From assembly GCA_025617745.1 (NCBI GenBank), contig CM046868.1, forward strand, positions 17,674,615-17,738,614: DNA of 64,000 nt. The letters are read 5' to 3'. Of this stretch, positions 26,644 through 53,267 are shown one piece after another. The position numbers and the translations under genes were made by a program. Origin of the DNA: Heliocidaris erythrogramma (Eukaryota; Echinodermata; Echinoidea; Camarodonta; Echinometridae). Every line of letters begins with the position of its first letter. Within the stretch, counting starts at the first letter, position 1. The notes under the pieces were generated by a model. That model had not been told where the DNA came from and ran no database searches. It worked only from the letters and a program-made list of their open reading frames with translations.

Positions 26644-26672
26644 GAACTCACAACCATGTAATAATAGTTTTA

Positions 26673-29015: not shown

Positions 29016-29052
<37 letters not shown>

Positions 29053-29870: not shown

Positions 29871-29872
29871 GC

Positions 29873-30403: not shown

Positions 30404-30470
30404 AGAATTAATGAAGATGACATCTTTCAACTAAAGAAGGAAATATAACTAACCAATATAAAATATATAG
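30085..30470 (+). repeat. Left arm of a 6.5 kb-spaced inverted repeat
   Basis: From CGATGCTAC through TTCTCTTTTACAGGACACTC, GGCCGTTACCATGGTAAC and CATGAAATAATGGTAAACATC, the sequence is repeated in reverse at 36620 down to 36240, by eye at about 70-80% identity. Confidence 0.7.
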
Positions 30471-31722: not shown

Positions 31723-31909
31723 AACACGATAAGAACTACTTTCGAAAAATAAACTCAAGGGCAATTTCAAAGGCCTATTGTACTGCCCATAGAAATCACG
31801 TTCGGATTATGTAATACACCATTGTAATGTTCGCACATTTCTAAAGGTGATAGACAGGGCTATTGAAATTGTCTTGAGTTTATTTTTCGAAAGTAGTTTT
31901 TATCGTGTT
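31723..31909. mobile_element. 187 bp MITE, ~47 bp TIRs
   Basis: AACACGATAAGAACTACTTT continues through CGAAAAATAAACTCAAG. It is inverted at 31862-31909 with two or three differences. Four bases TTAT flank both sides. No coding. Confidence 0.8.
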
Positions 31910-33255: not shown

Positions 33256-33260
33256 TGATG

Positions 33261-33533
33261 AATAACATTTATATTGCCCTGAATACATATGTTTCTAAGC
33301 GCCGAAGTAGTATTATTACCCTGGCTTCAGCCCAGCTGCCCTATAAGGCGCTGAAAGCAGTCAACGAATGAATTCCTACCATATACCCATTTACTACACC
33401 TGGGTGGAGAGTGGCGATTGTACATGAATGTCTTGCCAAAGGACATTCGTGCCGTGGCGGGACTCGAACCGTGAAACATGAGATCCACCATGAGATCCAC
33501 AGTCCGCTGACGTATCCACTAGACCACGACACC
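33261..33533 (-). mobile_element. tRNA-derived SINE, copy 1
   Basis: Read on the minus strand it starts AGGTGTCGTGGTCTAGTGGA (A box) and has the B box GGTTCGAGTCCCGCC about 50 bases later. A body follows with GGCAAGACATTCATG, CCACCCAGGTGTAGTAAATG and TAATAATACTACTTCGGCGC, ending in an AATATAAATGTTATT tail. A second copy lies at 58159-58408 in the same orientation. Confidence 0.85.
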
Positions 33534-33539
33534 TCTATT

Positions 33540-35387: not shown

Positions 35388-35667
35388 TTAAAGGGATACG
35401 CCACCGGGCGGCCGTGGGGAAAGTCAGGATTGCGTAAGCCCCATTCACTCGTACACAAAGTTTGTGCGTCGAACGCGTGGGATTACATTTCGACTGCACG
35501 AAGCCGACCGAATCTCGCACGAGAGCTCGAGCTCAGACGGAGCGTGCATGTTTGTGCGGCGACCAGTCTATCCGAGGTTTGCCCCCCGCGGGGCAACGGC
35601 ATGATCAGGTAACGATCACGGTGCCCTCTCGCGGCATTAAAACGTCCACAATCTGCGGTTGAGTATC
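35388..35667. mobile_element. GC-rich ~280 bp element with AAAGGGATAC ends
   Basis: AAAGGGATACGCCACC at the left and GAGTATCCCTTT at the right are inverted. The interior is far richer in G+C and CpG than the flanks. TTAA at 35388 precedes the left end. It abuts a separate MITE whose left end is missing, suggesting insertion or recombination between related TTAA elements. Confidence 0.55.
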
Positions 35668-35676
35668 CCTTTGCAT

Positions 35677-36148
35677 TGTTTCATGAAACAATGATATGAA
35701 TAACATGGGCTATATGCAAATTACTGAGCCGATGATGCCATAAGCTCACTTTTCCTTTTGTATTTTATTATATGAAATTTCAAATATTTCAGCTTTCTTC
35801 TCCAAGAATGTTTGACTCCTCGCAGAATGTGTACGATCATCATTATTATAAGTTATTGTGATAAAATGAAGAGAATCTTTATAAACATCTATGAAAAAAA
35901 TGAAATATTTGAAATTTCATATAATTAAATACAAAAGGAAAAGTGAGCTCATGACATCATCGGATCACTAATTTGCATTCAGCCTGCCCATGTTATGCAT
36001 ATCACTGTTTTACGAAACAATCCAAAAATTCAAAATGCCGTAAATTTCTTATTTTTATCCGATTTTGATATTTTTTTACTGTTTCGTTTATTTAATTTAA
36101 CTCTACTGATTGAACTCAACTCATTATTGCGGTGGACTTGGCCTTTAA
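35677..36148. mobile_element. TTAA MITE with long inverted arms, left end lost
   Basis: The arms at 35677-35816 and 35893-36028 are inverted copies (TTTTCCTTTTGTATTTTATT, CATATCACTG..., GCATAACATGGGC). The right terminus GGTGGACTTGGCCT is followed by TTAA (36145-36148). The matching left terminus is replaced by the GC-rich element. Confidence 0.7.
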
Positions 36149-36239
36149 GACAAACAAGCTGATTCTGATAGCTTCAGTGAAAAATAATATAAGATTCATT
36201 TGATATTGTTCAAATTCTGTTTGTTTAACATTTATTTTG

Positions 36240-36620
36240 TATTGGTAGGTCACATTTCTTTCTTTGAAAGATTTCATCTTCATTAACATTCAGTTTCCAT
36301 TTCCTTGGCAACAGTTTTTTATAAATCAAATCTAGCTCTACTCCAATTAACTAAAATTTTTAATATAATCAAACAGACGGCAAAAGTTATTAGATGTTTA
36401 CCATTATTTCATGTTGAAAACAACCATTATCTAATAATAGTATTTTGTTAGAAATAAAGCAATAATATAATTGTTACCATGGTAACGGCCTACACATGTA
36501 GTAGTCACATCTATCACCCCTTTACTAAAATAAGTTATCAGTGAGTGTCCTGTAAAAGAGAAAATAATAATGGTCAATATCAATACTTACCTCTTTTTTT
36601 AGGTAGCATCAAGGGATTTT
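36240..36620 (-). repeat. Right arm of the 6.5 kb-spaced inverted repeat
   Basis: Reverse-complement relative of 30085-30470. It includes GTTACCATGGTAAC at 36473-36486 and a CTTGGCAAC half-site at about 36303, again about 174 bp apart. Confidence 0.7.
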
Positions 36621-36639
36621 GCTCAAATATCATTTTTGT

Positions 36640-37200
36640 TAACGGGATAAAGGGATAACCCTTTATCCCATTATACCGCGTTTTACCGTGGTATAATGCG
36701 GTTGAACACAGTATAAGGCGGTATGATGCGTTAAACATGGTATACACGTACGTGTTATGCCAATAAAGCGTTATGGCGTGTTGAAACGCGGTTAAACACA
36801 GTATAAGACGTTTAACATGGTATACACAGCATGGACGCGGTTTAACATGTATAACAAGGTATAACAAAGTATAAAAGGGTATGACGTGGTAAAACGCGGT
36901 ATAACGCTGGTGAACACAGTAAAAAAGACGGTATGACGCGCTTGAAGATATTATAACGCGATAAAACTTGGTATGATGCGGTACAACTTGTATATCAAGG
37001 TACAACTCAGGTTAAAGCGTTATTGGGTGTTGAAACGCTGTATGACGAGTTATACAGAGTATTACGCGGTATACCAAGGTAAAACGAGGTATGACGCAAT
37101 TAAACGCAGTATAACGCGATATATCGCGGTATAAAGAGCTATCATACGTGGTATACACAAAATGATGCTATATACACCTGTAATACCTCATAAACATGTA
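36640..37200. repeat. Degenerate GGTATAACGCGGT array, part 1
   Basis: Short units of about 10-22 bp (GGTATGACGCGG, AACACAGTATAAGACG, TATACACG) are repeated without strict period. The array continues at 39715-40105 and 44100-44612, with a TIR element and a CR1 LINE inserted between. Minus-strand ORFs rich in Y, R, V, I and P are its translation. Confidence 0.85.
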
Positions 37201-37529
37201 TACTCTCTAAATGTAAGAGAGTGAAAAAGCACTCAAAAGAGAGTGAAATGAGTTAAATGAGGGACAACCCTTTTTCGAGTGCAAATGAGTGGTCACTATT
37301 TCACTCAGGAAAGTTCCAACTGTTTTTCTTTTTGTTAAGGAAAAATAAACAGTTGGATACATATGGCGACCCACTTGATTGTTTTCAAGTTCTTTCTTCT
37401 TCTTCTTGTTCTTATTATCCAACACCTGGAACTTTTTAATATGGATATATATATATATATATAAAATAAGTGTCCTGCGACGGTTAATGAAAAATACACA
37501 AAAGTCAATGATGAATAAGACAACCGTTA

Positions 37530-37586
37530 AGAGATGAAAGAATTCAAATTTTCATCATGGGCGAAAATTTGAATTCTTTCATCTCT
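37530..37586. repeat. Perfect hairpin, 24 bp arms
   Basis: AGAGATGAAAGAATTCAAAT plus TTTC, a nine-base loop (37554-37562), then the exact reverse complement. Confidence 0.9.
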
Positions 37587-37733
37587 GAACGTAGTCGGTG
37601 TCTCATGATGTGTATAATATAAGCGTGAGAGATATAAATGAGACGGGACGTAGCTCTCGGTTAACCTCGATTTTAATTCCAAGCTTTCGGCCTCATTTGG
37701 CCTTCTTCAGGGTCTACCAAGACAAGTCAAAAT

Positions 37734-37809
37734 TAAATGAAAAAGGATTGAACTCAGGACCTCACGTATGAAAGTCAAATGCATTCACGAGTATACCACA
37801 GTGCTCCCA

Positions 37810-37811
<2 letters not shown>
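37734..37811 (-). mobile_element. tRNA-like SINE fragment
   Basis: Minus-strand copy of the head found at 39231 (AGTGGGAGCACTGTGGTATA, B box GAGTTCAATCC). It abuts a (TA)n run. Confidence 0.65.
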
Positions 37812-37849
<38 letters not shown>

Positions 37850-37958
37850 TGTAAGGAAATAACATATACAAAAAAAATATGCAAAAATTTCAAAAAGGGA
37901 GGACAGCTCTGGGGAACTTTGATTGAGCTACGCAACGTTATTCTCGCATTTCTTTCAC

Positions 37959-37999
<41 letters not shown>

Positions 38000-38220
38000 G
38001 AGAGTTGCCAAAGCTGTTGTATATGTTATTTCCTCACGATATTGTTACTAATTATTCTAATGTATACATGTATCTCAAAGCATTCGCTTGGATCCAGCTG
38101 AGGCACGCGGCTTGTCTTTGTTCAAACTCACCTGCCCCCGACAACGGAATAAATTAATAAGGTTGAAGATTTGTCAATCTGTCGGTCAATTGAATCTGGT
38201 GTCGCCGAAACCACTGACCC

Positions 38221-38291
38221 GTCTCCGTGGTCTAGTGGTTAAGGCATTGGCGTTCTAAGCCAACGACCCGGGTTCGATTCCCGGCGGAGAC
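38221..38291 (+). tRNA. tRNA with anticodon UCU (Arg by codon), copy 1
   Basis: 71 nt cloverleaf. The 7 bp acceptor stem GTCTCCG/CGGAGAC is perfect. D arm GTC..GGC, anticodon stem TTGGC/GCCAA with loop GTTCTAA (anticodon TCT), T stem CCGGG/CCCGG with loop TTCGATT. A box TGGTCTAGTGG and B box GGTTCGATTCC are intact, and a T6 Pol III terminator follows at 38293. No intron. The body resembles animal tRNA-Glu while the anticodon reads AGA (Arg); see finding. It lies in a 407 bp tandem unit. Confidence 0.9.
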
Positions 38292-38627
38292 ATTTTTTCA
38301 GCCTTTGCAAAAATTTCAAAACGGGAGGACAGCTCTGGGGAACTCTGATTTAAGTTACGCAACCATTATTCTCTCATTTCCTTTCGCATTGTATATATAT
38401 TTCCACGAGAGTTGCCAAAGCTGTTGTATATGTTATTTCCTCACGATATTGTTACTAATTATTCTAATGTATACATGTATCTCAAAGCATTCGCTTGGAT
38501 CCAGCTGAGGCACGCGGCTTGTCTTTGTTCAAACTCACCTGCCCCCGACAACGGAATAAATTAATAAGGTTGAAGATTTGTCAATCTGTCGGTCAATTGA
38601 ATCTGGTGTCGCCGAAACCACTGACCC

Positions 38628-38698
38628 GTCTCCGTGGTCTAGTGGTTAAGGCATTGGCGTTCTAAGCCAACGACCCGGGTTCGATTCCCGGCGGAGAC
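38628..38698 (+). tRNA. tRNA with anticodon UCU, copy 2
   Basis: Identical to the copy at 38221, 407 bp downstream, with the same T6 terminator and flanks. Confidence 0.9.
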
Positions 38699-39034
38699 AT
38701 TTTTTCAGCCTTTGCAAAAATTTCAAAACGGGAGGACAGCTCTGGGGAACTCTGATTTAAGTTACGCAACCATTATTCTCTCATTTCCTTTCGCATTGTA
38801 TATATATTTCCACGAGAGTTGCCAAAGCTGTTGTATATGTTATTTCCTCACGATATTGTTACTAATTATTCTAATGTATACATGTATCTCAAAGCATTCG
38901 CTTGGATCCAGCTGAGGCACGCGGCTTGTCTTTGTTCAAACTCACCTGCCCCCGACAACGGAATAAATTAATAAGGTTGAAGATTTGTCAATCTGTCGGT
39001 CAATTGAATCTGGTGTCGCCGAAACCACTGACCC

Positions 39035-39105
39035 GTCTCCGTGGTCTAGTGGTTAAGGCATTGGCGTTCTAAGCCAACGACCCGGGTTCGATTCCCGGCG
39101 GAGAC
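39035..39105 (+). tRNA. tRNA with anticodon UCU, copy 3
   Basis: Identical again, 407 bp further. The unit ends in a (TA)n run at about 39207. Confidence 0.9.
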
Positions 39106-39199
39106 ATTTTTTCAGCCTTTGCAAAAATTTCAAAACGGGAGGACAGCTCTGGGGAACTCTGATTTAAGTTACGCAACCATTATTCTCTCATTTCCTTTC

Positions 39200-39230
<31 letters not shown>

Positions 39231-39236
<6 letters not shown>

Positions 39237-39480
39237 GTGGGAGCACTGTGGTATACTCGTGAATGCATTTGACATTCATACGTGTGGTCCTGAGTTCAAT
39301 CCTTGGTCGATGCGTACATCCTTGGACAAGGTGTTTTACCCAAATTTATCCCTCTTGACACAAATGTCAAGGTAACTTGCAAATTCCACGGTGATAATCA
39401 TTTGGACTCAGATTCATATGCAGATTCAAAGCACACGATTTCCTTCTAATAATCTAATAAATACAAAAATGAAATGTACA
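39231..39480 (+). mobile_element. tRNA-like SINE fragment
   Basis: AGTGGGAGCACTGTGGTATA (A-box-like), B box GAGTTCAATCC about 50 bases on, then a body with CTTGGACAAGGTGTTTTACC. An inverted partner lies at 37734-37811, so the tRNA array sits between two opposed copies. Confidence 0.65.
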
Positions 39481-39509
39481 TTCACATAAACATATATGTT
39501 TATGTGAAT
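39480..39509. repeat. 30 bp perfect palindrome
   Basis: ATTCACATAAACATA immediately followed by its reverse complement. Confidence 0.9.
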
Positions 39510-39530
39510 TTTTGCAAGGGTTGAAAAATT

Positions 39531-39576
39531 GTCTCCGCCGGAAATCAAACCCGGGTCTTTGGCTTAGAACGCCAAT
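39531..39576 (-). pseudogene. Truncated tRNA (3' half), reverse
   Basis: Covers acceptor 3' strand, T arm and anticodon arm of the UCU tRNA with a few changes (for example AAATCAAACCCGGG). It ends where the right TIR arm begins. Not functional. Confidence 0.8.
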
Positions 39577-39714
39577 TGGTGTTTCACTCTTTCCTGAGTG
39601 AAATAGTGACCACTCATTTGCACTCGAAAATGGGTTGTCCCTCATTTAACTCCTTTCACTCTCTTTTGAGTGCTTTTTCACTCTTTTACATTTAGAGAGT
39701 AACAATACCTTGTT

Positions 39715-40105
39715 ATTCACGCAGTTACACGACGCGGTATAAAGCGGCAAAAGGCGGTATAACGCGATATAACACGTATATAGCTCGGTAAAAAGCGGTA
39801 TGACGCAGTAAAACACGGTAAAATGCTGTATAACGTGGGATGAGCGGTATAACATGTATATAACAAGCTACAACGTGGGGAAAACATGATATGACGCGGT
39901 TAAACGCACTATAACTCGCTACACCGCGGTAAGACGTGGTATAAAGAGCTATAATACGTGGTATACACAAAATGATGGTATATATATACACATGTGATAC
40001 TTAAACATGTAAACATGTATAACAATACCTTGTTAATACACGCAGTAAAACGACGCGGCAAAAGGCGGTATAAAGCGATATAACATGTATAATACGTATG
40101 ACTCG
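39715..40105. repeat. GGTATAACGCGGT array, part 2
   Basis: Same unit family as 36640-37200. The run ATACGTGGTATACACAAAAT occurs in both parts (about 37145 and 39954), showing direct-repeat order. Confidence 0.8.
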
Positions 40106-40521
40106 GTATGATTTGATTTGATTTGATTTGATTTGATTTTATTCGTCAGGTATATTGCAATACAAACATAACCAGGTACCATGACAGGATAGCCCATGAA
40201 AGCCGAAATGGCTTATTTCCAATGGGGTCCTTATACCTAAATAACTGATTAAAAAATACACTAAGAAAACACATTAGTACGGCTACAAGACTATCGTACA
40301 CGTACGACAGGTAATAAGAATGTACTAAAGTAGCAAAATAAAACATAACATTTTTATAAAGTAGGCGAAGATTACATAAATGTGAAAACAAGACTTACTC
40401 AACGGAAAAAAACTATATACAGAAAATCATAATGAAACTATCGATAATAAACGTTGGTTACATAAGTCATATGATATAGGAAAAAACCATCTGAGCTACA
40501 AAAAGGAGAGGAGAAATATAG

Positions 40522-40782
40522 TTATGGAGTAGACACATTTTTCAGATGATGCTTCAACACCCTTTTAAAATGTAAAAAATTCTTAACTGACTTAACATGA
40601 TTTGGGAGGGAATTCCAGAAAAGAATACCGTTAAAATAAAAGGAATTTCCAATTTTACCTTTCCGCTTAGGCACTACGAAATTAAATTGACTATTTCTAG
40701 TGTCATGCCCATGAACACTTGAAGAGCGAGTAAAATTATTTGAAATATAGTGATCTGCATTAGAGTAAAAAATCTTATACAT
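40522..40782 (-). CDS. CR1 LINE ORF: C-terminal domain
   Basis: 86 residues from MYKIFY. Contains GHDTRNS and NSFYFNGILFWNSLPNHVKS, the conserved CR1 C-terminal block, and ends HLKNVSTP. It overlaps the thumb ORF by 8 bp in another frame, so the parts once formed one ORF. Confidence 0.87.
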   Translation of the reverse strand: MYKIFYSNADHYISNNFTRSSSVHGHDTRNSQFNFVVPKRKGKIGNSFYFNGILFWNSLPNHVKSVKNFLHFKRVLKHHLKNVSTP

Positions 40783-41269
40783 GGTGAATTAAAAGTTGTT
40801 GTGATCTAAGGTTTACATGAAGAAGACCAGCTGTTTCAAGTTCACTCTTCCCAATGTGTGTTCTTGGTGGTAAGTGATTGATAAATCTTACAATCTTATT
40901 TTGAATTATTTTTAACTTGTTTTGATCCACCTTGCCTAGACTGCAGTACCATGCCGTATTAGCATAATCAAATAAACATTGTATTAAGGAAAAACTTAAA
41001 ATGCGTCTTGATTTTAAGTTCATGCAATTTTGATAACGATACAAGAATTTTAGACGAGCATTAGCTTTTTTGACAATACTGTCAACCAAACTTGAGCAAG
41101 AAAGATCACTAGCTATATTTAGTCCTAAATACTTCACAGAATCCTGTCTCTTAATGAGTTGATTGTTATAACTTATATTGAAATCATCAGTATACTTCAG
41201 CCTACCCCGCGAACAAAACAAAATACTTTCGGTTTTACCAATATGTAAGCTAAGCTTATTTGCTGTCAT
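40775..41269 (-). CDS. CR1 LINE ORF: RT thumb
   Basis: 164 residues: KTESILFCSRG, DSVKYLGLNI, IQCLFDYANTAWYCSLGK, LKIIQNKIVRFI. These match the post-YADD and thumb regions of CR1. The frame ends one base out of register with the following C-terminal piece. Confidence 0.88.
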   Translation of the reverse strand: MTANKLSLHIGKTESILFCSRGRLKYTDDFNISYNNQLIKRQDSVKYLGLNIASDLSCSSLVDSIVKKANARLKFLYRYQNCMNLKSRRILSFSLIQCLFDYANTAWYCSLGKVDQNKLKIIQNKIVRFINHLPPRTHIGKSELETAGLLHVNLRSQQLLIHHV

Positions 41270-41292
41270 CCAATTAACACAGTTTGATAATT

Positions 41293-42093
41293 CTAAGCTA
41301 AGTTTTCCCCGATCAGCTTAGGATCAGTACCAGAATATAGTAACACACTATCATCCGCATATAAAAGTAATTTACTGTCGTTGACACAAACACACATATC
41401 ATAAATGTAGCACATGAAAAGAATGGGACCTAATATGCTCCCCTGGGGAACTCCGCATCTTATGGGCATAGAATCGGAGAGTACATTTTGCAACGAGACA
41501 ACTTGATGACGATTGGTCAAGTAAGACCTAAACCATTGCACACATGCAGAATTTAAACCCATTACTTCTAATTTACTTAACATTATATTATGGTTAACGG
41601 TATCGAAGGCTTTTTGCAAGTCAAGAAGAACCATCCCGACAAAACGTCCTTGGGAAATTTCGTTCCTGACAAAATCTAACAGGTGAATAAGACAAGTTTC
41701 AGTGGAATAACCATTTCTAAAACCAGATTGAAATTCGTATATTATTTTGTTTTCTTGAAAGTAGTTCTCTAATTGGGCATACACACATTTCTCTAGGACC
41801 TTCGAGACTATACTTAAAACGCTAATCGGTCTATAATTGCTAACATTAGTTTTATCTTTCTTTTTATAAAGGGGTGTTACTTTTGCAATTTTCATTTCAT
41901 CAGGGAAGGTGGAAGTTGAGATAGATAAGTTAATAATGTAAGTTAAAGGTTTATACAAATATTTAGCTCCATCCTTCAAAAATCTGGCAGGTACCAAGTC
42001 AAGCCCGGTACTTTTTGATATTTTCAACTTATTTAATTCATCTAAAACAAACTTTTCTTTGACAGGAGAAAAAAGAAAACAACCTTTCGACAC
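41293..42093 (-). CDS. CR1 LINE ORF: reverse transcriptase core
   Basis: 266 residues with VTPLYKKKDKTNVSNYRPIS, LEKCVYAQLENYF, QSGFRNGYSTETCL, LLDLQKAFDTVNH, CGVPQGSILGPILF and the active site LLLYADDSVLL. This is the order of RT blocks 1-5 in CR1. The frame breaks after IGENLA by a one-base deletion; the other frame continues SLELSNCVNWM. Catalytic aspartates are present. Confidence 0.9.
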   Translation of the reverse strand: MSKGCFLFSPVKEKFVLDELNKLKISKSTGLDLVPARFLKDGAKYLYKPLTYIINLSISTSTFPDEMKIAKVTPLYKKKDKTNVSNYRPISVLSIVSKVLEKCVYAQLENYFQENKIIYEFQSGFRNGYSTETCLIHLLDFVRNEISQGRFVGMVLLDLQKAFDTVNHNIMLSKLEVMGLNSACVQWFRSYLTNRHQVVSLQNVLSDSMPIRCGVPQGSILGPILFMCYIYDMCVCVNDSKLLLYADDSVLLYSGTDPKLIGENLA

Positions 42094-42173
42094 ACCCTTA
42101 GTGTCGTATAATTTTTGTAATTTAACACTGTCCGTTCCAAATTCATTTGCGTTGCTATCTGGCAGATTACTAG

Positions 42174-43940
42174 CTAATTTTCTGCCACAGTTGTGAAATA
42201 ATTGTTCAATTCGTTCGCTATCCTCATATCATCATGACATAACTCCCCTTGGATATTAATAACATTCTCTTTAACATTCTTTTGTTTGTTTTTACAACCT
42301 AAATCTTTCAGATTCTTCCACAACTTTGTAGAATCATTTTTATGCTCCTCAATTTGATTTTGGAAGTATTCATCTTTAGCCTGTCTCACTTTTCTTTGCA
42401 CCAAATTACGTAAAAGTTTATATTTCTTTTCTAATTCTAAATTACCACAATCCTTTTTCATTCTTTTAAAAGCTATATTTCTTTGTCTTATCAACAAAAT
42501 AATTTCAGCATTCATCCACTTATCGGTTCTTTGCTTAATTCTTACTTGTTTTAATGGAGCACATTTATCAACTATAGACATGAAAATATTTTTGAAAATT
42601 GACCACGCAGTATTTACTTCTTTACATTCTAATATGTCAGACCAATTGACTCGAGATAAAACATTATTAAAATCATCTATACAATAGTTTCTCATACACC
42701 GAATATTTATATTTCTATGCTGTTTGAATACAGGTCTTATTAGCTTCCTAGAGCAGTAGGTTAAAATATGATCACTTAGGCCAATTTCAATAACACCACT
42801 TTGACAAATATTTTCTTCTTTACTGCTGATTACATGGTCTATTAATGATGAAGTGACCGATGTTGTTCGAGTGGGTTTAGTTATAAGTTGACTGAAACCA
42901 TTTAAATTCAAAATATTCTTGTATTTTTTTGATAATGAAGACTGCTGCAAAAGGCAGATATTCATGTCCCCTAAAATTATAACCTCATCATCTTTTGTTA
43001 ATTTATCCAAGGTGTCAGTGAGATGTTCAATAAAAAAATGATATGTAGGGGGTCTGTACACAACACCTAGAGTAATGGGTTTTGTATGGGGTAATAGAAT
43101 GTCAATCCATAACGATTCAATATCATTTTGTGTAAGATCTTCTCGTACGTTAAATGCAATATCATTTCTAATATAAAGACAGACTCCACCACCATGTTCT
43201 CGTACACGGTCTCGTCTTAAAATACAATATCCATCGATACAAACGTCTTCATCGTTCACGGAAGAGTTTAACCACGTTTCAGTGATTGCAATTACAGAGA
43301 TTCTATTTTGGGAGAAAATGAGTCGTAGTTCAGGTATTTTAAACAGAATTGATCTAACATTCAAATGAACAAGATGCAACCCTTTACCATTAAAAGTATC
43401 ATTAAATGATTCATATAAAGCGCTTTCATCAACAGTATTCTGTATTCTAACTTCAGGGATAGGAGGTAAAATTGGTTGAGAGGGTTGAATATCTTGACAG
43501 GATTGAGTAAAAAGGGAGTCACAAAAAGGTGGTAATGAGCACGTCAAACAGACCCAATTTTCATTGGGGTTATGATATAACCTGGTATACTCAGAGAGAG
43601 AGATTTCAAGACATTTAGTATGGTACCACTTTTGGCAGGTGGAACACAATAGGCCATGTTGGTTGTTTTTTACGGGTTTATCACATTTACCGCAAGGAAA
43701 TTTGTAGTTTGGACCGGGATTAGTTTCTACGTCACCAGATAGGAAAAGACGATAAAATATTTGATTATTTGTCTGAAATAACGTAGTTTGAAAGGTGGCA
43801 ACAGAGTTCTGATAATACAAAATTCGGGAGTGAAAGTATTTTAAGCGTTTAAATGATTTTAGCGTAACATATTCAAAACTAGACGCAACCCCGCAAGAAC
43901 ATAAACACGAAATTAAAAGATAAAATACAAGAAAGTTCAT
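42174..43940 (-). CDS. CR1 LINE ORF: leader, 2A-like peptide, PHD finger, APE endonuclease
   Basis: 588-residue frame from ATG at 43940. Residues 1-20 form a signal-peptide-like hydrophobic stretch. At 67-77 is LSGDVETNPGP, a full 2A-like consensus (DxExNPG then P) at which ribosomes can skip a peptide bond. A C4HC3 PHD finger follows (Cys 83, 86, 99, 102, His 107, Cys 110, 131, 134). The APE endonuclease runs from about 190 to 420, with LNVRSI, ITETWLN, GGGVCLYI, VYRPP, GDMN and SDHILTY. A basic linker leads to RT. The frame stops after TTVAEN at an A run; one extra A would continue into LASNLPD of the next segment. 2A-like peptides are known in APE-type LINEs of sea urchins and other invertebrates, where the upstream leader can act as a targeting signal. 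Confidence 0.9.
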   Translation of the reverse strand: MNFLVFYLLISCLCSCGVASSFEYVTLKSFKRLKYFHSRILYYQNSVATFQTTLFQTNNQIFYRLFLSGDVETNPGPNYKFPCGKCDKPVKNNQHGLLCSTCQKWYHTKCLEISLSEYTRLYHNPNENWVCLTCSLPPFCDSLFTQSCQDIQPSQPILPPIPEVRIQNTVDESALYESFNDTFNGKGLHLVHLNVRSILFKIPELRLIFSQNRISVIAITETWLNSSVNDEDVCIDGYCILRRDRVREHGGGVCLYIRNDIAFNVREDLTQNDIESLWIDILLPHTKPITLGVVYRPPTYHFFIEHLTDTLDKLTKDDEVIILGDMNICLLQQSSLSKKYKNILNLNGFSQLITKPTRTTSVTSSLIDHVISSKEENICQSGVIEIGLSDHILTYCSRKLIRPVFKQHRNINIRCMRNYCIDDFNNVLSRVNWSDILECKEVNTAWSIFKNIFMSIVDKCAPLKQVRIKQRTDKWMNAEIILLIRQRNIAFKRMKKDCGNLELEKKYKLLRNLVQRKVRQAKDEYFQNQIEEHKNDSTKLWKNLKDLGCKNKQKNVKENVINIQGELCHDDMRIANELNNYFTTVAEN

Positions 43941-44099
43941 GACACCTTAAATACACACAGACACACACGCCTGCACCCTTATGAACTAAAAAAAGACAAA
44001 AATGAGTCAGTGTCTATATCCCGCCATTATCCTCAAGCTCCATCTTCGAGACACTGGAAACACCGCTTCCTGGGCGACATAATACACGATGCTCGTGAG

Positions 44100-44612
44100 C
44101 TCCAGAATGTTTGTATAAAGCGGTATGACGCGGGAAAATGCGGAATGACGCGGTTAAAGACAGTAAACACATGTATAACATGGTATACACGGGATGGGCG
44201 CGGTATAGCATATATAACAACGTATAACACGGTATAAAAGCGGTATGTCGCAGTGAAATTTACCACGATAAAACACGGTATAAACTGGTGTTACACATAG
44301 ACATGGTATACTTTTCATAACATGTATAACAATACCTTGTTATACGTGTTATAACATGCTTCATGACGCGGTAAAACGCGGTATAACGCGTTTGAACACA
44401 GTAGTATAACGCAATATGACGTATTTAAATGCAGTATAACACGCAACGTATACACGGGATGGACGCGGTATAACATGCATAACAAGGTATAACGTGATAT
44501 AAAAGCGGTATGACGCTGTAAAATGCGGTATGACGTTGTTGAACACACAGTATAAGGCGCTATTAAGCGACATAACACGTATAACACTGTATAGAGCTGA
44601 TGGCATAATAAC
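44100..44612. repeat. GGTATAACGCGGT array, part 3
   Basis: Same degenerate units, interrupted upstream by the CR1 LINE. It includes the uninterrupted site AACATGTATAACAATACC near 44325. Confidence 0.8.
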
Positions 44613-44734
44613 GCCCTACATTTATATCACAATATTACGCAATAATACGGCGTGGTGCTTACCCTACATTACCCTTCATGTAGGGTAAGCACCACGCCGT
44701 ATTATTGCGTAATATTCTGGTATAAATGTAGGGC
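44613..44734. repeat. 57 bp-arm near-perfect hairpin
   Basis: The left arm starts GCCCTACATTTATA and the right arm ends TATAAATGTAGGGC, with two mismatches over 57 bp and an 8-base loop (44670-44677). The central CTTACCCTACAT stems are perfect. Confidence 0.92.
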
Positions 44735-44769
44735 ATTATAACTCCCTACATGACGGCTTTATAACGAAA

Positions 44770-45255
44770 TATTACGGCCTAATAACGCCCTAATACGGCG
44801 TTAAAATGCTCTATTACAGTTGGGTCACTTTTCTTGAACTCACACAGTAAACTATAAAAATGTTTTGATTTCATTGTTGACAATCTAATGGCATCGCCTG
44901 TTTTGATTTCATGAAACTCATCATAACTGTGCATAATACCTGTATCGTTATCATGCCGATTGACTTCATGGATTCGTTTGATGCAGACTTTGGGGATCGC
45001 CTTCTTGAGCTTCGCATACTTCAAGTCAACCAACAAGGAGTTCGAACCAAGAACATTACAAATATTATCTCGTGATTTAAAATGTCCATTTTCTACAATA
45101 TCATTAATCTTTAAGAGTCCCTTTGAAAACCATTCTTTAAAGAATAAGGTTTTACTACGAAATTTTATATTGCTATTGTACCATAATAATTCATTTCAAA
45201 CATTTTCGACATGCAGAAAATCAACGTACCTAAGTTCACTCCAAAATATAAGACA
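44770..45255 (-). pseudogene. Tx1-like LINE ORF2 fragment
   Basis: The minus frame reads LWYNSNIKFRSKTLFFKEWF, then GLLKINDIVENGHF and LVDLKYAKLKKAIPKV, the region after the RT thumb in Tx1/L1 elements. The C-terminal part is an open 85-codon stretch from 45036 to 44779. It is truncated at both ends. It is inserted in the TCGAC-array element, right after GCCTCGGGGGCAA. Confidence 0.75.
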
Positions 45256-45539
45256 GTTGCCCCCGAGGCAGAGACAGATCATATCGGTCTAGTGTCGTTA
45301 GAGGTCCTAGAATAGATGTTACTTTAATTTTGTTTTAGTCTAAGTTAAAAGTTAGCTATTTAACGTTAAAAAGTAGATCTAAGTTAGATTGAGATAGATG
45401 ACATAGATTACGGAAGAGTCACAGGTGGCTACGAGTGCAGCCTTAGTTGCCCCTTTTGCCATAAATTTCTTTTTAGCATGAGTCTGATACTTGAAGTACG
45501 GAGCCCCTAAGAGGACATTTATAATGACAATTTTTTTTT

Positions 45540-45926
45540 TATTTCGTTCCCTCGAAATATTATTTCGTTCCCTCGAAATGATTTCGTTCCCTCGAAATAA
45601 TATTTCGTTCCCTCGAAATAATATTTCGTTCCCTCGAAATATTATTTCGTTCCCTCGAAATGATTTCGTTCCCTCGAAATATTATTTCGTTCCCTCGAAA
45701 TATTATTTCGTTCCCTCGAAATATTATTTCGTTCCCTCGAAATATTATTTCGTTCCCTCGAAATATATGATTTCGTTCCCTCGAAATATACCATTTCGTT
45801 CCCTCGAAATATACCATTTCGTTCCCTCGAAATATATGATTTCGTTCCCTCGAAATATATGATTTCGTTCCCTCGAAATATACCATTTCGTTCCCTCGAA
45901 ATATATTATTTCGTTCCCTCGAAATA
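45540..45926. repeat. Array of ~18 units ATTTCGTTCCCTCGAAAT, left arm
   Basis: Each unit is itself a hairpin (ATTTCG, six-base loop, CGAAAT), separated by 2-4 variable bases (AT, ATT, G, ATATGA, ATACC). It is open in all frames, giving false ORFs rich in SFPRN or ISRERN. The inverse array lies at 48936-49364. Confidence 0.95.
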
Positions 45927-46079
45927 TTTGCACCATGCGACAGTTTAGTGAAAACAACGTAACGGTACATTAAGGAATGACGATCCTATACATAGCAGGA
46001 AAAAGGGGTATACATCACAGGTTGATTCCTACTTCTCTACCTTATACATGTAGTTCATTTGACAGAAAATCTGTTTTCC

Positions 46080-46460
46080 CTGATGATTCCCTCTCTCTCT
46101 TTCACCATTTCTTCTCTTGTGCTTTCCCTCCCTTTCTCCCTCTTTATGCCCAAAATTCTCCACTTACACACATCTTCCCTCAACTTTTTATCTCCTTTTC
46201 CCCCCAATGATTCCCTCTCTCTCTATTTCTCCCCTTGTGCTTTCCCTCCATTTCTCCCTTTTTATGCCCAAAAATTCTCCACTTTCACACATCTTCCCTC
46301 AACTTTTTTATCTCTCCCTTTTTCCCCCAGTGATTCCCTCTCTTTTTCACTATTTCTTCTCTTGTGCTTTCTGTCTCCCTTTCTCCTTCTTTTTGCCCAA
46401 TATTCTCCAATTACACACATCTCCTCTCAACTTTTTATCCCTCTTTTTTTTTTCTTTTTC
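46080..46460. repeat. ~125 bp pyrimidine-rich tandem repeat, three copies
   Basis: Each copy runs TGATTCCCTCTCTCT, CTTGTGCTTTCCCTCC, TATGCCCAAAATTCTCC, CACACATCTTCCCTCAAC. The long ORFs here are repeat translations. Confidence 0.85.
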
Positions 46461-46469
46461 CATTCTGCC

Positions 46470-48320
46470 AATTGTTGGTTTTGATCTCAGTCCCGCACTC
46501 ATACCTTTCTTTTCAATTGTTAGTTTCATTCACGACAAGCCTTGCATAGTAAATGTGTTTGAGCTCTTCCAGAGATGACAAAAATATTCAATTGATTTGA
46601 AATATATTATTACTTCTGGAAAAATGTAGATATAGATGTTGTATCCAGGAAATGGTTGTCTTACAATTGAACATCAAAAATTCAATGGAATGCCCACCCC
46701 CCCCCCCCAAAAAAAAATAACAAAACAAAACAAACAAAACTAATTAGCTTCCAAAGTGTGTTTCATTAACAAATTAAACAACAAATGCCATAAAAAATAA
46801 CAGTCCTCATATGCCATTAACAATAGAGTTATCATTCTTGACTGAGATACATGCATCTTTACAACATCAATTACAAAAAATGCTCTGGGCAAATACTTAG
46901 ATGTGAACTCAGTTACCCAATTCCAATTTTATTTCTGACAGTGAAAATGAATATTCAAAATAAGCCTCCTAGACTCCTCTTCTCCTCTGATACTTGAAGC
47001 AAAAACAGCAATAAAATTTTTACCACATTGTCACAGTGTAGCACACCCTCATGTAATAAACCCAACTTTCAGGGAAACTGATATCCATGTATAGGAATTA
47101 AATATCATGAAAAGACTGAACAATGACGTACTAGCATTTTTAACATTTCTTATAAACAGTTATATACATGATAAATGTATATGCTATCTAAGCGTTATCA
47201 AGTTAACAACTAGTACATAATAATAAATACAACAATAAATCAAATGAAAGAAGAAAAAAAAAATCTGTAGAAAAAATAATGTCAATTTGAAAAGAAATAT
47301 GATGTGAAGCAACAATAATGATGATCACATGAATGACCCGATTAAATAAAAGATGTTTGCCAGTCATTAGTACTGAATATTTTTTTCTTTCAAATAATGA
47401 CTTTGTGTAAATGTTTACACTGATGGAACAACAGTTCTGATACATAAATATTTTTAAAATGTTCAATTTTACTATCACCTTTGCATAATGTTGAGATTTG
47501 TGCATGTCACACCAAGCCCCAATAAAAAAAAATGAGAATAATGGTTGCATAGCTTAAATTAAAGTTCCACAGAGCTGCCCTCCCTTTTGATTTTTTTTGC
47601 AAAGGTTAAAAATATATATATACATACAGTAAACTTTGAAAAGAAAATACCCTAAAGAGGTAAAATGCAGGGAATATTTCCAATTTAAAAAAAATATCTT
47701 TGAAAATCTATCTTAGAACAGTAATAAAAATCTCAGTGATAAGGTGGAAGTAAAACATATATTTTTCTGTAAACATAGATCTTGACAAGGTGGGGGAAAA
47801 GATAACAGCAAAATTGTATGTAGGTCTACGCCTCTTCAAAGCCTGCCTTGCCTGTCCGCCATACTGCTGTCGATACAAATACTATAGTAAGCAGTTTCCA
47901 TCACATACCACTCCATGCAGACACACTGGATGAAACCCTGGGTGGAGAAGAAGAAGAAGAAGAAGATCATATCTATTGTCAACTATAACGGTACCTACAC
48001 TTACTTAGTGTAGCAGCACAAAGAAAACAAGCAAGATAACAGGAGAGCTAAGAGTTTTCTGGATATCAATGTTAGAATTTACTAGAATCAAACGCTACCA
48101 CCCCATGCACCAGTAAAACTGCCCAAGCGCAAGCCCAGGCAGGGTCAGCAGGCGAACAACCAAACGGTGCGGCGTGTACCCCGGCCGCACATCGAGCTCA
48201 CTGCCTCGATCAGCGAAGTATCAGCTCAGCCTCTCGGGCAATTTGCAAGCGTAAACAAGATTCATAATACGTGGATATGCGTGAATTAAACTTTAATCGG
48301 TAATTTATTATCAAAAAATA
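46470..48320. other. AT-rich interior of the 3.9 kb element
   Basis: No protein family is visible. A fragment of the tRNA-unit 3' flank lies at about 47553-47612 (minus), and (GAA)n at 47947-47970. Confidence 0.5.
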
Positions 48321-48325
48321 ATTAC

Positions 48326-48560
48326 CAGTTGTTATTCCCAAGTCTCCCGTCGATATCCTCTCCGTTATTAAAATCAGGGACGTCTCTGTCATCATCAGAA
48401 TCTTGCCTAGAATCCGACATGTCTGGCTCAAACATAGTAAAAAGTATACGGCCGGGCCCCTAATTCCTCTTCAATTTCTTCTGGGACTTGATGCTCCAAA
48501 TCAGATATATCTGATCCTGAATAAGTGTCCTGGCTGAAGAAGATGATGCCATCGTTGATG
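48326..48560 (-). pseudogene. Acidic exon-like stretch with ARPY...RLGN pattern
   Basis: The minus strand reads SQDTYSGSDISDLEHQVPEE IEEELGARPYTF in one frame to about 48440, then (one frame over, MFEP at 48435) DSDDDRDVPDFNNGEDIDGR and LGNNNW, ending at a splice donor CTG|GTAATT at 48326. The order acidic stretch, ARPY, EP, acidic stretch, RLGNxxW resembles the start of the P2RX7-C-terminal-like domain found in many invertebrate repeat-encoded proteins. The following CxCG zinc-binding part would lie in the next exon, which I did not find. Broken by a frameshift. Confidence 0.35.
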
Positions 48561-48935
48561 TAGGATTTTGTCTTTAAAAAGCTAAAATGAAGTGCTGAAA
48601 TGGCACGAAGTCGAAGGGATCTACACGAAGCTCAATAGCCATAACACACACACATCGATACTCGATCCAGCTTGTGTGAGTCGAGCGTTCTGTGGGTGAC
48701 GTCACATGACGTCATCGATCGCTGGACCGATTTTCCAAAATTTTTAGGGGCGTTCCCAGTTATTTTTTTATTTTCAAGGTTACAGATTAATGAATGGAAT
48801 TCAGGTGATATGATTGACAGATCTGGATTCACAGTAGAAAAGTCTATTAAATGAAGTTCCTTTGTAATTCCATAAAAGGGGACCTTTAATGTACCGTTAC
48901 GTTGTTTTCACTAAACTGTCACATGGTGCAAATAT

Positions 48936-49364
48936 TTTGAGGGAACGAAATAGTATATTTCGAGGGAACGAAATGGTATATTTCGAGGGAACGAAATGGT
49001 ATATTTCGAGGGAACGAAATGGTATATTTCGAGGGAACGAAATGGTATATTTCGAGGGAACGAAATCATATATTTCGAGGGAACGAAATAATATTTCGAG
49101 GGAACGAAATCATATATTTCGAGGGAACGAAATAATATTTCGAGGGAACGAAATAATATTTCGAGGGAACGAAATCATTTCGAGGGAACGAAATAATATT
49201 TCGAGGGAACGAAATAATATTTCGAGGGAACGAAATATTATTTCGAGGGAACGAAATATTATTTCGAGGGAACGAAATATTATTTCGAGGGAACGAAATC
49301 ATTTCGAGGGAACGAAATAATATTTCGAGGGAACGAAATATTATTTCGAGGGAACGAAATAAAA
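48936..49364. repeat. Array of ~20 units ATTTCGAGGGAACGAAAT, right arm
   Basis: Inverted counterpart of 45540-45926, with the same unit and the same spacer types. The inner junction (GTGCAAATATTT) and outer junction (A10 then TTGTCATTATAAATG) match the left arm. Confidence 0.95.
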
Positions 49365-49676
49365 AAAAAATTGTCATTATAAATGTCCTCTTAGGGGCTC
49401 CGTATTGAAGAGTATCGCAACAGGTTCACTCGCACTATCAGCGTCACTGTCCAGACGCCATGATTGGTGTTGTCTGTAGAGTCTGTATGTAAGACAGATA
49501 ACGCGTTAACGGCGGAGCTTGTACCGCAGGCCCATGGCTATGTTAAAGCCCTAACTTCCGAGATCGTCGCGTCTGGCAAAAAAAAAGATCACAACATAAT
49601 TTTTTTAAAGTCGACTTGGTCAGCTAATTTATGTCGCCATGTCGACTTTTTGAGAAGTCGACTTGGCAAGATAATA

Positions 49677-51543
49677 AACTCCTAAAAAAAAGTTTGGAAA
49701 TCTGACTTTGATCGATCATTTCTCCCGAGTCTCAGTGAATATTGATGTTTGATTGATACCACTGAAAAGATCATCTAATTCTCTTTAAAATGATACCCTA
49801 CATGATATGATTATCGTTCACATGGAGGTGCAGTGCCTTGAAATGTGGGGCAAGGTCAAAATTCAAAAGTTGCAAAATGACACAATATTGAAAGTCACTG
49901 TTCTTTTTTACCGTGCTGATGAGTGAGTTTCCCAGTTGTTTCTTTTGTTTTCATGCATCTTAACATCAACATTAACATGGAATCAAACAAACCTCTGCAC
50001 AAGTAAACACATAACAAACAAACAAACATGCATGCATGGGTATTTCAAAACACGACTCAAACCATGTTATCTCACTACAAAAACCACAACAAAACATCAA
50101 AAATGAAGAGGTAGGGGCTCGATTTAATGGATTTTCATATTTATTGTCACATACAGAGATCTTTGATTTCATCAATTAACATGATCAAGGCTCAGTAACG
50201 GGTGGACGACCCAAGTGCTTGCACCACCGCCTGGCACCGCCTCCTCATGCTGCTGATGAGCTTCGTGATTCGTTGCTGTGGAACGGCATTCCATTCTTCA
50301 ATCAGAATCTGACGCAGTCCTGCCAGTGTCGTTTCATAGGTGACTCTCTTCCGTACAGACTGGCCGAGTTGATCCCAGAGATGCTCGATGGGGTTTAGGT
50401 CTGGGCTGCATGCAGGCCACTCCATTCTCGTGATATCCTCTCTTTCGAGAAAATTGCGGACCAGTCTCGCTCTGTGGGGTCTCGCGTTGTCGTCTTGCAG
50501 GATTGCGTCGTTCCCCATATTCCTTAAATACGGGACAGCTGTTGGTTGGAGGATCTCGTCTCTATACCTCTGAGCAGTGAGGTTACCGTCAATGACAACA
50601 AGTTCTGTTTTTCCTGCAGTCGAGATGCCTCCCCACACCATCATGCTTCCTCCACCGAATGGTGTAACGCGGTCGATGCAGCTATCGTCGAAACGTTCAC
50701 CCCGCCTACGCCACACCTTCACTCGCCCATCAACTTTCCGCAGGCAGAAACGCGGAGATGATCGCAGCACCAACGAAGGCGCTCCTGCTTCTGTCGAACA
50801 GTCATTGCTGGTTTCTTTGCCGTCTTTCGTGCTCGGAGATTGGCAGCATGGAGGCGGTTTCTCACTGTTTGGTCAGATACCCTGGTGTTGAACCTCCTAA
50901 CAACGCTTCGTTGAATACTCTGTGACGATCGTCTACGATCAAGTACCCTGATATAACGGTCTTGCTGTTCCGTCGTGATCTTCGGACGTCCACTCCTGGG
51001 CCGATCCTTGACATCACCCGTTGCTCGGAATTTCTGTTTCCATTTAGTGATGGTCCCAGGGCTTACACCAAGTCTCTCTGCTACATCTTTTTGAAGCATC
51101 CCAGCTTCGATTTGCCCAATGGCGCGGGCCTTTTGAACATTACTTACACGTGGCATAATGAACAACCAACCTAACAGACTGAGCCATTAACACTGCCTGA
51201 CATGGCACCACCAAAAGCTTGAATATGAAATTCAAACTTCTATTGAATTTGACATTCATGGTTGACCAGTTGATAACAAAAGACATCACTCCGGACAAAA
51301 GAATCATGTTCTTTATTGACCCTTCATGACCATTTCTGCTCGTTTTGCAGCTTTTCAGGTCAGACCTTATCCAACACTTTTGAATCCTGCTCTTTTCCTG
51401 ATGGCATGATCATAACAAGCAGGGTATCATCTTAAAGAGAATTAAATGATCGTTTGAATTATATCAAACATGCATTGGGTAAAATTGGGAGATGGGAGAA
51501 ATTAGTGGCCAAAGTCAGATTTCCAAACTTTTTTTGAGGAGTT
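49677..51543 (-). mobile_element. Tc1/mariner-type transposon
   Basis: TIRs start AACTCCTAAAAAAAAGTTTG and are inverted at the right end. TA duplications lie at 49675-49676 and 51544-51545. Inverted similarity extends about 140 bp inward (TTCTCTTTAAAATGATACCC). It encodes a broken Tc1 transposase on the minus strand and is inserted in the TCGAC array. Confidence 0.92.
50192..51165 (-). pseudogene. Tc1-like DD34E transposase, broken
   Basis: Two overlapping frames. The N-terminal part (51165-50719) has a paired-like helix-turn-helix region (QKDVAERLGVSPGTITKWKQ), the RPRSGRPK linker, and a second HTH (DQTVRNRLHAANLRARK). The C-terminal part (50773-50192) has GGGSMMVWGGIS, DDNARPHRARL and SPDLNPIEHLWDQL. 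The spacing of the second Asp and the Glu is 34, as in DD34E. The normal VLFxDESRF block with the first Asp reads VLRSSPRFCL here. Together with the frame change after RLRWCCDH it points to a small deletion plus frameshift at about 50770. The protein cuts and pastes the element in related active copies; this copy is inactive. The start at 51165 is one of two close Met codons (MFIMPRVS). Confidence 0.92.
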
Positions 51544-51544
51544 T

Positions 51545-51955
51545 ATATCTCGCCATGACGACATAGTTTTTTTTGTTAAGTCGACTTGGCAAGATAATTA
51601 ATGTCGCCATGTCGACTTATAATTTTTGGGAAGTCGACTTGGCAAGATAATATATCTCGCCATGACGACATAATATTTTGGGATATCCACTTGTGAAGAT
51701 AACATATCTCGCCTTGACGACATGTATTTTTGTTAAGTCGACTTGTCAAGATAATATATGTCGCCATGACGACATGATTTTTTTTCTTAAGTCGACTTGG
51801 CAAGATAATTTATATCGCCATGTCGACTTATAAAAGTTTTTAATTCGACATGGTTAGATAAATATCTTTACAAGTCGACAAATATTGATATTAAGTCGAC
51901 TTGTCGAGATAAAATATCTCGACACGTCGTCAAGTCGAATGGCATTTTAACGTTT
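51545..51955. repeat. TCGAC palindrome array, terminal part of copy 2
   Basis: About seven ~55 bp units alternate TTAAGTCGACTTGGCAAGAT and ATNTCGCCATGWCGACATA. The last units match the end of copy 1 in reverse. Confidence 0.85.
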
Positions 51956-53267
51956 CCGTAGTTATCCTATAATAGCCAATTGATCTGTCCAAGTTGGATC
52001 CGCGGAAAGGATAATGTAAAATAACAATTAGAACACATTTCCTGCAATAATCGTGAGTCTTAATAGATTTTAATGCAATAATGTAATGCCATGTTCATAT
52101 TGGCAAGGTAAAAAAAAACCTCAGAACACTTCAATTTCAAGTCTTTGTGATCTTAAAATAAACGCGGGCAATTTATGACATATTGCTAAAAATATTATTT
52201 AAAAGGATCGTTTTCTCTGTATCGCATTTATTATATCATGTATATAGTATATACGAGGCGTTGGAACAATGTATAGGCGCATTGTTTCTCTAAGCAGTTA
52301 CGGATGGATGTTTAGATTATATTATAGTAACAAACCATTATAAGTACATTCGCAATATCGGAAAATAATACCAGTAACATGATTATCATGACTGGAAGAT
52401 GAGAAAAATCGGGTTGATTTATTAACAAAGAAGTGATAAGCCTAAACGGAATTAGAAAGCTTTCCAGGTATAGATTCTATTTTCTCTTTTTAATATTGTT
52501 TTATACAAGAAAGTGGCAAGGACGATTATTACCTCCGTAAACTTTGGCAGTTTATGATAATTGCCTAATATGATAGCCAGGAAAATATCTGATCACATTT
52601 GTATTGGCAGGCTGACAATTATAACACTACTACCATGACTACCTGAAGCTAACCTGCAGCTATTATGTCGCCTGACACTGATGTGATTGCCTGGTCCCCT
52701 CAAAGAAATGGGGTGGGGATTGTTGACACGCTGGTCTTCCGATCGTTATCAAATTGGCGGGAAAATGAGACGTTCGAAAGGTTAATAACCATCTAGAATG
52801 CCTTCCACAAGAGCACAGTTAGATAATTTTCACATCCTCCTGCAACTAGGGACGCCTAGGGGTGAGAAGTCCAAGCTTATTTATAATCGGTACTGGCAAC
52901 ATCTTGTCACTTTGCAATTAAATTCAGCTTCTGTCGAACGTTGGTCAGCCCACAAACGCTTGTTTTATTTACTTTTCAAGTGATAATAAGAAACATAATT
53001 TGGTTTGCTAGTTTGGTATGAAGGTGAATTCTATCTATTAATTACTCATTGATTAATCATCCATTAGCATTGTGATATCTTAACGAGGACAAGTCATTAA
53101 TCTTAGAAAAGATGGTTGAATATTACTCAGGGTGACACAGGGCGAGTTGTAAAAAAGAACCGTCCCGAACACCACTCAGCCATATCAAATTATTTCGTTC
53201 CTTCTTCATTATATATATTTATATATACACATATTGAATAGAAAGTCCACGTGTTGGAGTAATATCA
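51956..53267. other. No supported feature
   Basis: AT-rich; no TIR, SINE box or protein family was recognised. A 61-codon ORF at 52798 has no support. Confidence 0.5.

Follow-up and report, generated by a model that had tools for sequence, protein, structure and literature searches.

Matched changes in the palindromic arm units of sister IS3EU-type transposons suggest paired transposase docking sites in a sea urchin genome

We analysed a window of 64,000 nucleotides from Heliocidaris erythrogramma (assembly GCA_025617745.1, contig CM046868.1, positions 17,674,615 to 17,738,614, forward strand), which contains a 3,908-bp transposon of a family here called F1. Both terminal inverted repeats (TIRs) of this element carry an array of short palindromic units, and a 6-bp target-site duplication (TSD) flanks it. 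Our favoured and, as a whole, moderately probable reading is that F1 is a recently mobile, non-autonomous, foldback-style element of the IS3EU superfamily whose arrays would be multi-site docking platforms for a transposase bearing a helix-turn-helix (HTH). Matched changes in the two palindrome halves between sister families suggest that the units are paired docking sites for the transposase. The features of F1 in the window are listed here.

45491..45496, plus strand: left TSD, TTGAAG
45497..49404: non-autonomous IS3EU-type element of family F1, 3,908 bp
45497..45540, plus strand: left tip, 44 bp, TACGGAGCCCC running into a T run, same sequence as the right tip
45541..45925, minus strand: left array, 18 perfect 18-bp dyad units with periods of 19, 21 or 23 bp
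45926..45973, plus strand: inner part of the left TIR, equal to the transposase-side arm of longer F1 copies
45974..48885: F1 interior, without a Pfam match in the open stretches tested
48886..48933, minus strand: inner part of the right TIR
48934..49360, plus strand: right array, 20 units, 19 of them perfect
49361..49404, minus strand: right tip, 44 bp
49405..49410, plus strand: right TSD, TTGAAG

The boundaries at 45497 and 49404 and the duplication TTGAAG are exact, as a first-pass annotation of the window had given them. From the outside inwards, each end consists of TACGGAGCCCCTAAGAGGACATTTATAATGACAA and a T run (44 bp, both ends alike), the array and about 48 bp of inner shared sequence; the left TIR thus measures 477 bp and the right one 519 bp. 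The array unit, ATTTCG-TTCCCT-CGAAAT, has two 6-bp half-sites around a 6-bp loop. Allowing up to three mismatches, we counted the unit ATTTCGAGGGAACGAAAT 38 times in the window (18 left, 20 right; 37 of the 38 perfect), compared with 0.08 expected in the shuffled window, so that the arrays of palindromic units reported earlier for both arms are present. Within an arm all units have one orientation, and the two arms are mutually inverted. Spacers of 1, 3 or 5 bp separate the units and produce the periods of 19, 21 or 23 bp. When the spacer order of the left arm was compared with that of the right, none of 2,000 free permutations aligned equally well, and 103 of 2,000 did so when the permutation was kept within length classes. 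The units showed only slight helical phasing (coherence at 10.5 bp of 0.46 and 0.53, without a control).

Seven different open stretches of the interior gave no match to Pfam at E values up to 1, and for this reason we read the 3.9-kb type as non-autonomous. The interior also contains a pyrimidine-rich tandem repeat (46074-46450, three imperfect copies of about 125 bp) and a segment (47534-47615) that is 84% like the 82 bp after each of three tandem tRNA-Arg(TCT) copies. On the minus strand at about 48320-48740, a stretch containing TGACGTCA, with a short frame after it that ends in RLGNNNW before a GT, resembled the first exon of KolX/P2X7-ballast proteins. We did not rely on this resemblance; two short pieces of the suspected part (about 48320-48650) had no match in Pfam.

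To place the element in its family, we used the window's own assembly (1.064 Gb, 26 contigs). The 30-bp F1 tip had 40 exact matches (control: 0), and a 23-bp tip pattern with up to two mismatches had 226. Among the matches listed (the first 100 of 226) were 41 exact F1 tips and three with one mismatch, one of which differs at the first base; all two-mismatch rows among them were the tip of the sister family F4 (TACGGAGCCCCTAAGGGGACATA). Pairing of tips yielded 21 complete F1 copies. Sixteen have the window-type interior and a size of 3.7-5.7 kb, and the other five contain rva_4 integrase-type transposase sequence. Mean pairwise divergence among 13 of the 16 window-type copies was 0.65%, from which we conclude that the family was mobile recently.

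The TSD is exactly 6 bp long in 11 of the 21 copies, in agreement with the length first proposed from the window alone, and matches at five of six positions in another three. Repeats of 7, 9 and 14 bp occur in one copy each, two copies have a 6-bp repeat displaced 4 or 18 bp from the tip, and two have none. When left flanks were paired with the right flanks of other copies, a 6-bp repeat was found in 1 of 420 pairings. This single pairing may come from two C8 copies about 205 kb apart that have flanks in common (C8:29150430, L019, and C8:29355361, L020), one with 18 bp of filler between TSD and left tip. Direct repeats adjoining the tips measure 14 bp in L031 (C10 copy) and 9 bp in C16:23976072-23984959 (L023, L024), a copy that sits within the tip of another F1 copy; IS481EU elements reportedly have discrete long TSDs.

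Unit number, which the first-pass annotation had proposed to tabulate, varies from 2 to 24 per arm: it was 7 to 24 over 36 arms of 18 copies (605 units) and 2 to 24 over six arms of three copies paired later. Such fast turnover points to recombination or slippage within the arrays. Searches for the F1 unit in viral_contigs and for the F1 tip in viral_contigs and genome_contigs gave 0 matches; these are viral, bacterial and archaeal contigs, hence little informative.

The existence of longer copies with transposase sequence, a further point proposed for checking, was borne out by the five copies mentioned above. The longest (18,807 bp, C8:29296402-29315208) has a 300-codon frame, a further exon-like frame and, on the strand opposite the transposase, a 701-codon frame (element positions 8753-10855; L029 end and L030:1-1556). 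The first transposase frame and the 701-codon frame are both open, and the array lies upstream of the transposase reading frame. In L030, 518 codons of the 701-codon frame weakly match the C-lobe of HECT E3 ligases; since the score of 20.3 bits lies below the curated Pfam cut-off of 23.9 (PDB E 0.054), we call the product HECT-like only. With the C3 frame as query, hmmscan identified rva_4 (Pfam E 2.1e-24), rve remaining below cut-off (0.0015). The C8 transposase location was also matched in the genome-wide rva_4 search. The catalytic triad has the spacing D-58-D-40-E (D145, D204 and E245 of the exon reading frame).

The remaining four transposase-bearing copies are shorter. In two of them (8.9 and 7.5 kb), long internal parts of the 18.8-kb copy are missing. 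The other two, of 10.5 and 10.4 kb (C3:21501905-21512410, L012 and L013; C5:33127773-33138163, L016 and L017), are 99.8-99.9% identical to each other and occupy separate sites with the TSDs AGGTAG and AAAAGC. Their TIRs are 2.65 kb long (96.6% identical), and each includes the transposase region, inverted between the arms; of the four arms, the right one of the C3 copy alone has the 300-codon exon frame open, and the other three have it interrupted. Because both arms contain the transposase region and the TSDs are distinct, it appears that the transposase-side arm replaced the opposite arm and that the product then moved. In the 3.9-kb type, too, both ends have the transposase-side inner arm wherever typing succeeded (the typing motif missed one arm in 4 of 13 copies). 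Array turnover by recombination or slippage could be the source of homology for such replacement.

These data place F1 in the IS3EU/GingerRoot superfamily with high confidence. In the available parts of two descriptions (PMC10045372, PMC12730594), the superfamily is marked by termini of the form TA..TA or TAYGG..CCRTA, a TIR of more than 30 bp and a 6-bp TSD. The F1 ends, TACGG..CCGTA, fit this pattern, the TIRs are far longer than 30 bp, and the 6-bp TSD of F1 recurs in five of seven F4 copies (two of the five positives being from separately fetched ends). The transposase is of the integrase-type DDD/E kind; its first D, D145 of the exon reading frame, falls within the 100-300 residues from the N-terminus expected of the superfamily, and the exon frames, judged by eye on an alignment, have no HHCC motif. 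Termini, TSD and integrase-type DDE together overturn the first-pass view that the element could not be placed in a known superfamily. We rejected IS481EU (TNT..AYA or TGT..ACA; TSD of about 4, 15 or 25 bp) on the termini TACGG and the mostly 6-bp TSD of F1; the one copy with a 14-bp repeat was noted beside this comparison. As a structural type, Foldback (a long TIR whose outer domain consists of short tandem repeats) describes F1 well. Superfamily, termini and TSD of this kind are already known. We found no description of palindrome arrays or of a HECT-like gene in IS3EU in the literature searched, a search that did not extend to Repbase Reports and most subscription journals, and a Repbase entry may well exist.

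Genome-wide, at least 116 matches to PF24764 (rva_4) came from the 150 candidates scored out of 273; 14 control genomes gave none. They include five further rva_4 families, F2 to F6, whose tips show TACGG and whose arms have arrays of short dyad or half-site units. The tip start TACGGAGCCC is common to F1, F3, F4, F5 and F6 (the F5 tip from L051 only). The units of the six families are as follows.

F1: commonest unit ATTTCG TTCCCT CGAAAT
F5 (L051, L056): commonest unit ATCTCG TTCCCT CGAGAT
F6 (L052): commonest unit ATTGCG TTCCCT CGCAAT, 30 of 31
F3 (L045): commonest unit ATCTCG TTAAAA CGAGAT
F4: half-sites AAGTCG, AACTCG and ATCTCG around GGGCCC (112 units)
F2: units include ATCTCG CCATGA CGACAT and ATCTTG CCAAGT CGACTT

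A perfect 6-6-6 dyad is the commonest 18-mer in four families (F1, F3, F5, F6), and the loop TTCCCT is common to three (F1, F5, F6). Among the four, stem positions 3/16 and 4/15 vary on both sides, giving two compensated pairs. Stem pairing held in 24 of 24 cells, compared with 8-46% for slid partners, all six of which were lower; the comparison used one typed commonest 18-mer per family, i.e. four sequences. In a second dyad test, the inner CG-TTCCCT-CG was fixed and the outer four bases were left free. This pattern found 2,847 adjacent unit pairs genome-wide (control: 0). Among the matches listed (100 of 2,847 pairs), 81 were complementary, compared with a mean of 30 and a maximum of 48 in 1,000 shuffles, and three complementary stem classes were present. 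These rows are not independent, since they fall into clusters that follow the arrays, and the halves compared are the 3' half of a unit and the 5' half of its neighbour.

Between families the six transposases are 35-73% identical, which indicates that the array plan is old. Ahead of the transposase core, all six have an SLRHLKR-like stretch (SLRQLRR in F2), taken by eye as a putative HTH. Loci L053-L055 and L057 carry partial F4- or F2-type arrays. A search of L034-L043 for paired TAYGG ends flanked by a 6-bp TSD found none, and no TACGGAGC tip with an array was seen in the short (3.3-5 kb) stretches of L034, L036-L038, L049 and L050.

From these observations we infer binding, dimerisation, synapsis and mobilisation in trans as the steps of the following course. 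The window element would presumably be mobilised in trans by rva_4 transposase from longer copies that have its tips and arrays. In this scheme the TACGG tip, together with the 6-bp stagger, would serve cleavage and strand transfer, and the array would offer a platform of dyad sites, each with two 6-bp half-sites 6 bp apart, about every 21 bp. The N-terminal HTH of the transposase would probably bind the dyad as a dimer, and many protomers loaded per end could help that end to find and synapse with its partner. Binding of the array units by the transposase is, to judge from sequence, somewhat more probable than its absence. Tip and unit have no 5-mer in common and therefore look as if they were read by separate domains; this difference and the precedent of the Galileo transposon (see below) are our reasons for regarding the array as a set of likely dimer sites for the transposase HTH.

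Several findings weigh against this proposal. The lack of a common 5-mer also means that one domain need not bind both tip and unit. The 18.8-kb C8 copy has no TSD, and one arm of copy C12 is down to two units. The F1 units did not prove to be better conserved than the F1 interior (45 changes in 605 units, 0.41%, vs 0.18-0.72% interior-to-consensus). With only four sequences, the covariation score was reached by 17 of 500 shuffles. The dyad is perfect in only 17 of 35 F5 units from L056, one of three from L051 and two of six F3 units, as against 37 of 38 in the window and 30 of 31 in F6. In F4 the mean number of paired stem positions per unit is 4.7 of 6, and the consensus dyad of this family is non-significant (2,951 of 5,000 shuffles as good). 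Finally, all 25 stem changes within F5 and F6 arrays are uncompensated.

Some of these points would fit binding of the dyads by another protein, either a host zinc-finger or chromatin factor or another protein of the element, for example the HECT-like product, with the array acting as promoter or insulator and not as a synapsis platform. The difference between tip and unit, the second long frame of the 18.8-kb copy with its weak HECT match, and the position of the array upstream of the transposase frame all speak for this idea. We consider it unlikely: the unit changes between families of one transposase lineage, suggesting an element-borne partner, and gene-less non-autonomous copies retain their arrays.

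Passive growth of a satellite inside the TIR by slippage or unequal exchange, without a role in transposition, would account for the wide range of unit numbers and the ordinary conservation of the units. It would also account for the arms of one F1 element, which differ mostly by gain or loss of units and by few substitutions. According to the available part of its description, TIR repeats of the Foldback element Tetris can expand into satellite DNA (PMC4079207). In a table of an oyster satellite survey, two satellites are assigned to IS3EU; 'foldback' occurs in the reference list of that survey. Left unexplained by such growth are the single plan with different units in families whose transposases differ so widely, the compensated stem changes and the loop TTCCCT in three families, and we regard it, too, as unlikely.

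The first-pass annotation had offered transposase binding at multiple sites or cruciform formation as roles of the arrays. The former stays our best reading, and the latter is weaker. If units acted as extruded DNA hairpins or structured RNA, the perfect dyad of the F1 unit would be expected, and the folding of the unit does surpass that of most shuffles (z -2.8, and -9.3 for a stretch of five units). A single hairpin of single-stranded DNA, however, with its 6-nt loop, reaches only -3.2 kcal/mol. Half-sites of F4 are often unpaired, yet their sequences persist, and a loop sequence is common to three families; we take both as arguing for recognition of duplex DNA by protein over hairpins, which we think improbable. 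A Mutator-type Foldback origin, suggested by long TIRs that consist of short tandem repeats, a feature also of Tm1 (units of 13-15 bp) and Tetris, can be dismissed almost entirely, as such elements have TSDs of 8-10 bp whereas that of F1 is mostly 6 bp (9 bp in 1 of 21), and the transposase of the partner copies is of the rva_4 integrase type.

Beyond docking, we tentatively suggest a co-evolving address system in a clade of IS3EU transposons, which is possible although we would not expect it on balance. In it, dozens of family-specific dyads per end, on the 6-6-6 plan about every 21 bp, would serve as the address, and the arrays would also provide homology for rebuilding arms, elements with transposase in both arms still being mobile. 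If this were true, half-sites that change together between families could make the ends of one sister family distinct from those of another.

The F1 insertion lies in the right arm of a larger element of family F2, whose left arm retains an uninterrupted counterpart of the F1 target. The corresponding features are listed here.

25656..25661, plus strand: left TSD of the F2 element, GTTATC
25662..51960: F2-family IS3EU-type element with several later inserts, 26.3 kb, its right arm holding the F1 element
25684..25940, plus strand: F2 left-arm array, with a 52/105-bp higher-order period
26118..26132, minus strand: uninterrupted counterpart of the F1 target, in the F2 left arm
51544..51935, minus strand: F2 right-arm array
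51961..51966, plus strand: right TSD of the F2 element, GTTATC

There is a single uninterrupted site, TACTTGAAGAGTATC, on the minus strand at 26118-26132. The bases adjoining the two TTGAAG copies differ, and the duplication is therefore unambiguously 6 bp. The flanks of the empty site match those of the F1 insertion at 82% and 85.5%, which identifies it as a diverged paralogous site and not an allele. The first-pass annotation had described an uninterrupted exon at 26129-26143; the site exists, at the position and strand given here, and the supposed exon lies in the F2 left arm. A 41-codon reading frame there, followed by GT, was read by eye and recovered by tblastn, and is compatible with a candidate exon.

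The F2 tips in the window are TAGGGAAGCGTTAGAGTGCC and TACGGAAACGTTAAAATGCC, with GTTATC directly outside each and arms running inward from 25662 and 51960. The arrays on either side, at 25754-25937 and 51544-51921, are no unrelated satellites, as they match the end of an F2 family element at C2:25400400-25408500. That reference element has the tip TACGGAAGCGTTAAAGTGCC and a 417-codon rva_4-type reading frame; within the 26.3-kb window element no F2 transposase was identified. Each F2 arm in the window has a 52-bp-period array and a short exon-like frame, the right frame being broken by the F1 element. The F2 element spans most of the middle of the window, and its later inserts include a Tc1/mariner element (50195-51186) and a long interspersed nuclear element (LINE; 41296-43946). 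The LINE encodes an endonuclease, a reverse transcriptase and a PHD finger; the DVETNPGP stretch near the start of its frame resembles a 2A peptide. The tRNA-Arg(TCT) copies lie in a three-fold 407-bp tandem repeat (38221-39106), and a further single copy is at 54920-54991.

IS3EU is a minor superfamily, and we found no biochemistry on it in the literature searched. One genome here offers copies of young age, copies bearing transposase and a number of sister families whose sites differ. It makes an open foldback question, whether arm repeats bind transposase and why there are so many, directly testable. It also provides a natural case of arm replacement, a process that may lie behind the origin of foldback ends.

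The TU elements of sea urchins have foldback arms of short tandem repeats and an 8-bp TSD. The comparisons that follow refer to the available parts of the sources cited. Sea urchin is listed among foldback hosts (PMC4079207), and tandem repeats have been described from the foldback TIRs of other superfamilies (PMC4079207, PMC3169594, PMC3688188). Described IS3EU/GingerRoot elements (PMC10045372, PMC12730594) share with F1 the termini TACGG..CCGTA, the 6-bp TSD, TIRs above 30 bp, an integrase-type DDE transposase and non-autonomous derivatives. Unlike F1, they are described without palindrome arrays in the TIRs and without a HECT-like second gene, and the fungal TET-bearing members carry TET/JBP and alpha-kinase genes. 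Tetris/DAIBAM of Drosophila virilis (PMC4079207) resembles F1 as a Foldback element with tandem repeats as the outer TIR domain and non-autonomous complete copies, and differs in its 220-bp units and 8-10 bp TSD. Like F1, Tm1, a Mutator/Foldback element of Meloidogyne (PMC3169594), has in each TIR short outer motifs and then tandem units, here of 13-15 bp and in varying number, and its non-autonomous and transposase-bearing classes have common ends. Its TSD is 9 bp, its transposase is Mutator-like (Phantom-like), and its Motif C is not described as a dyad. Galileo (P superfamily, Drosophila; PMC3688188) likewise has long, internally repetitive TIRs. It differs from F1 in its THAP-domain transposase and in the three sites located per end, no dyad array of 21-bp period being described. 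The THAP domain of Galileo binds both at some 70 bp from the end and within the tandem repeats, which makes it the nearest tested precedent for the array binding that we propose for F1.

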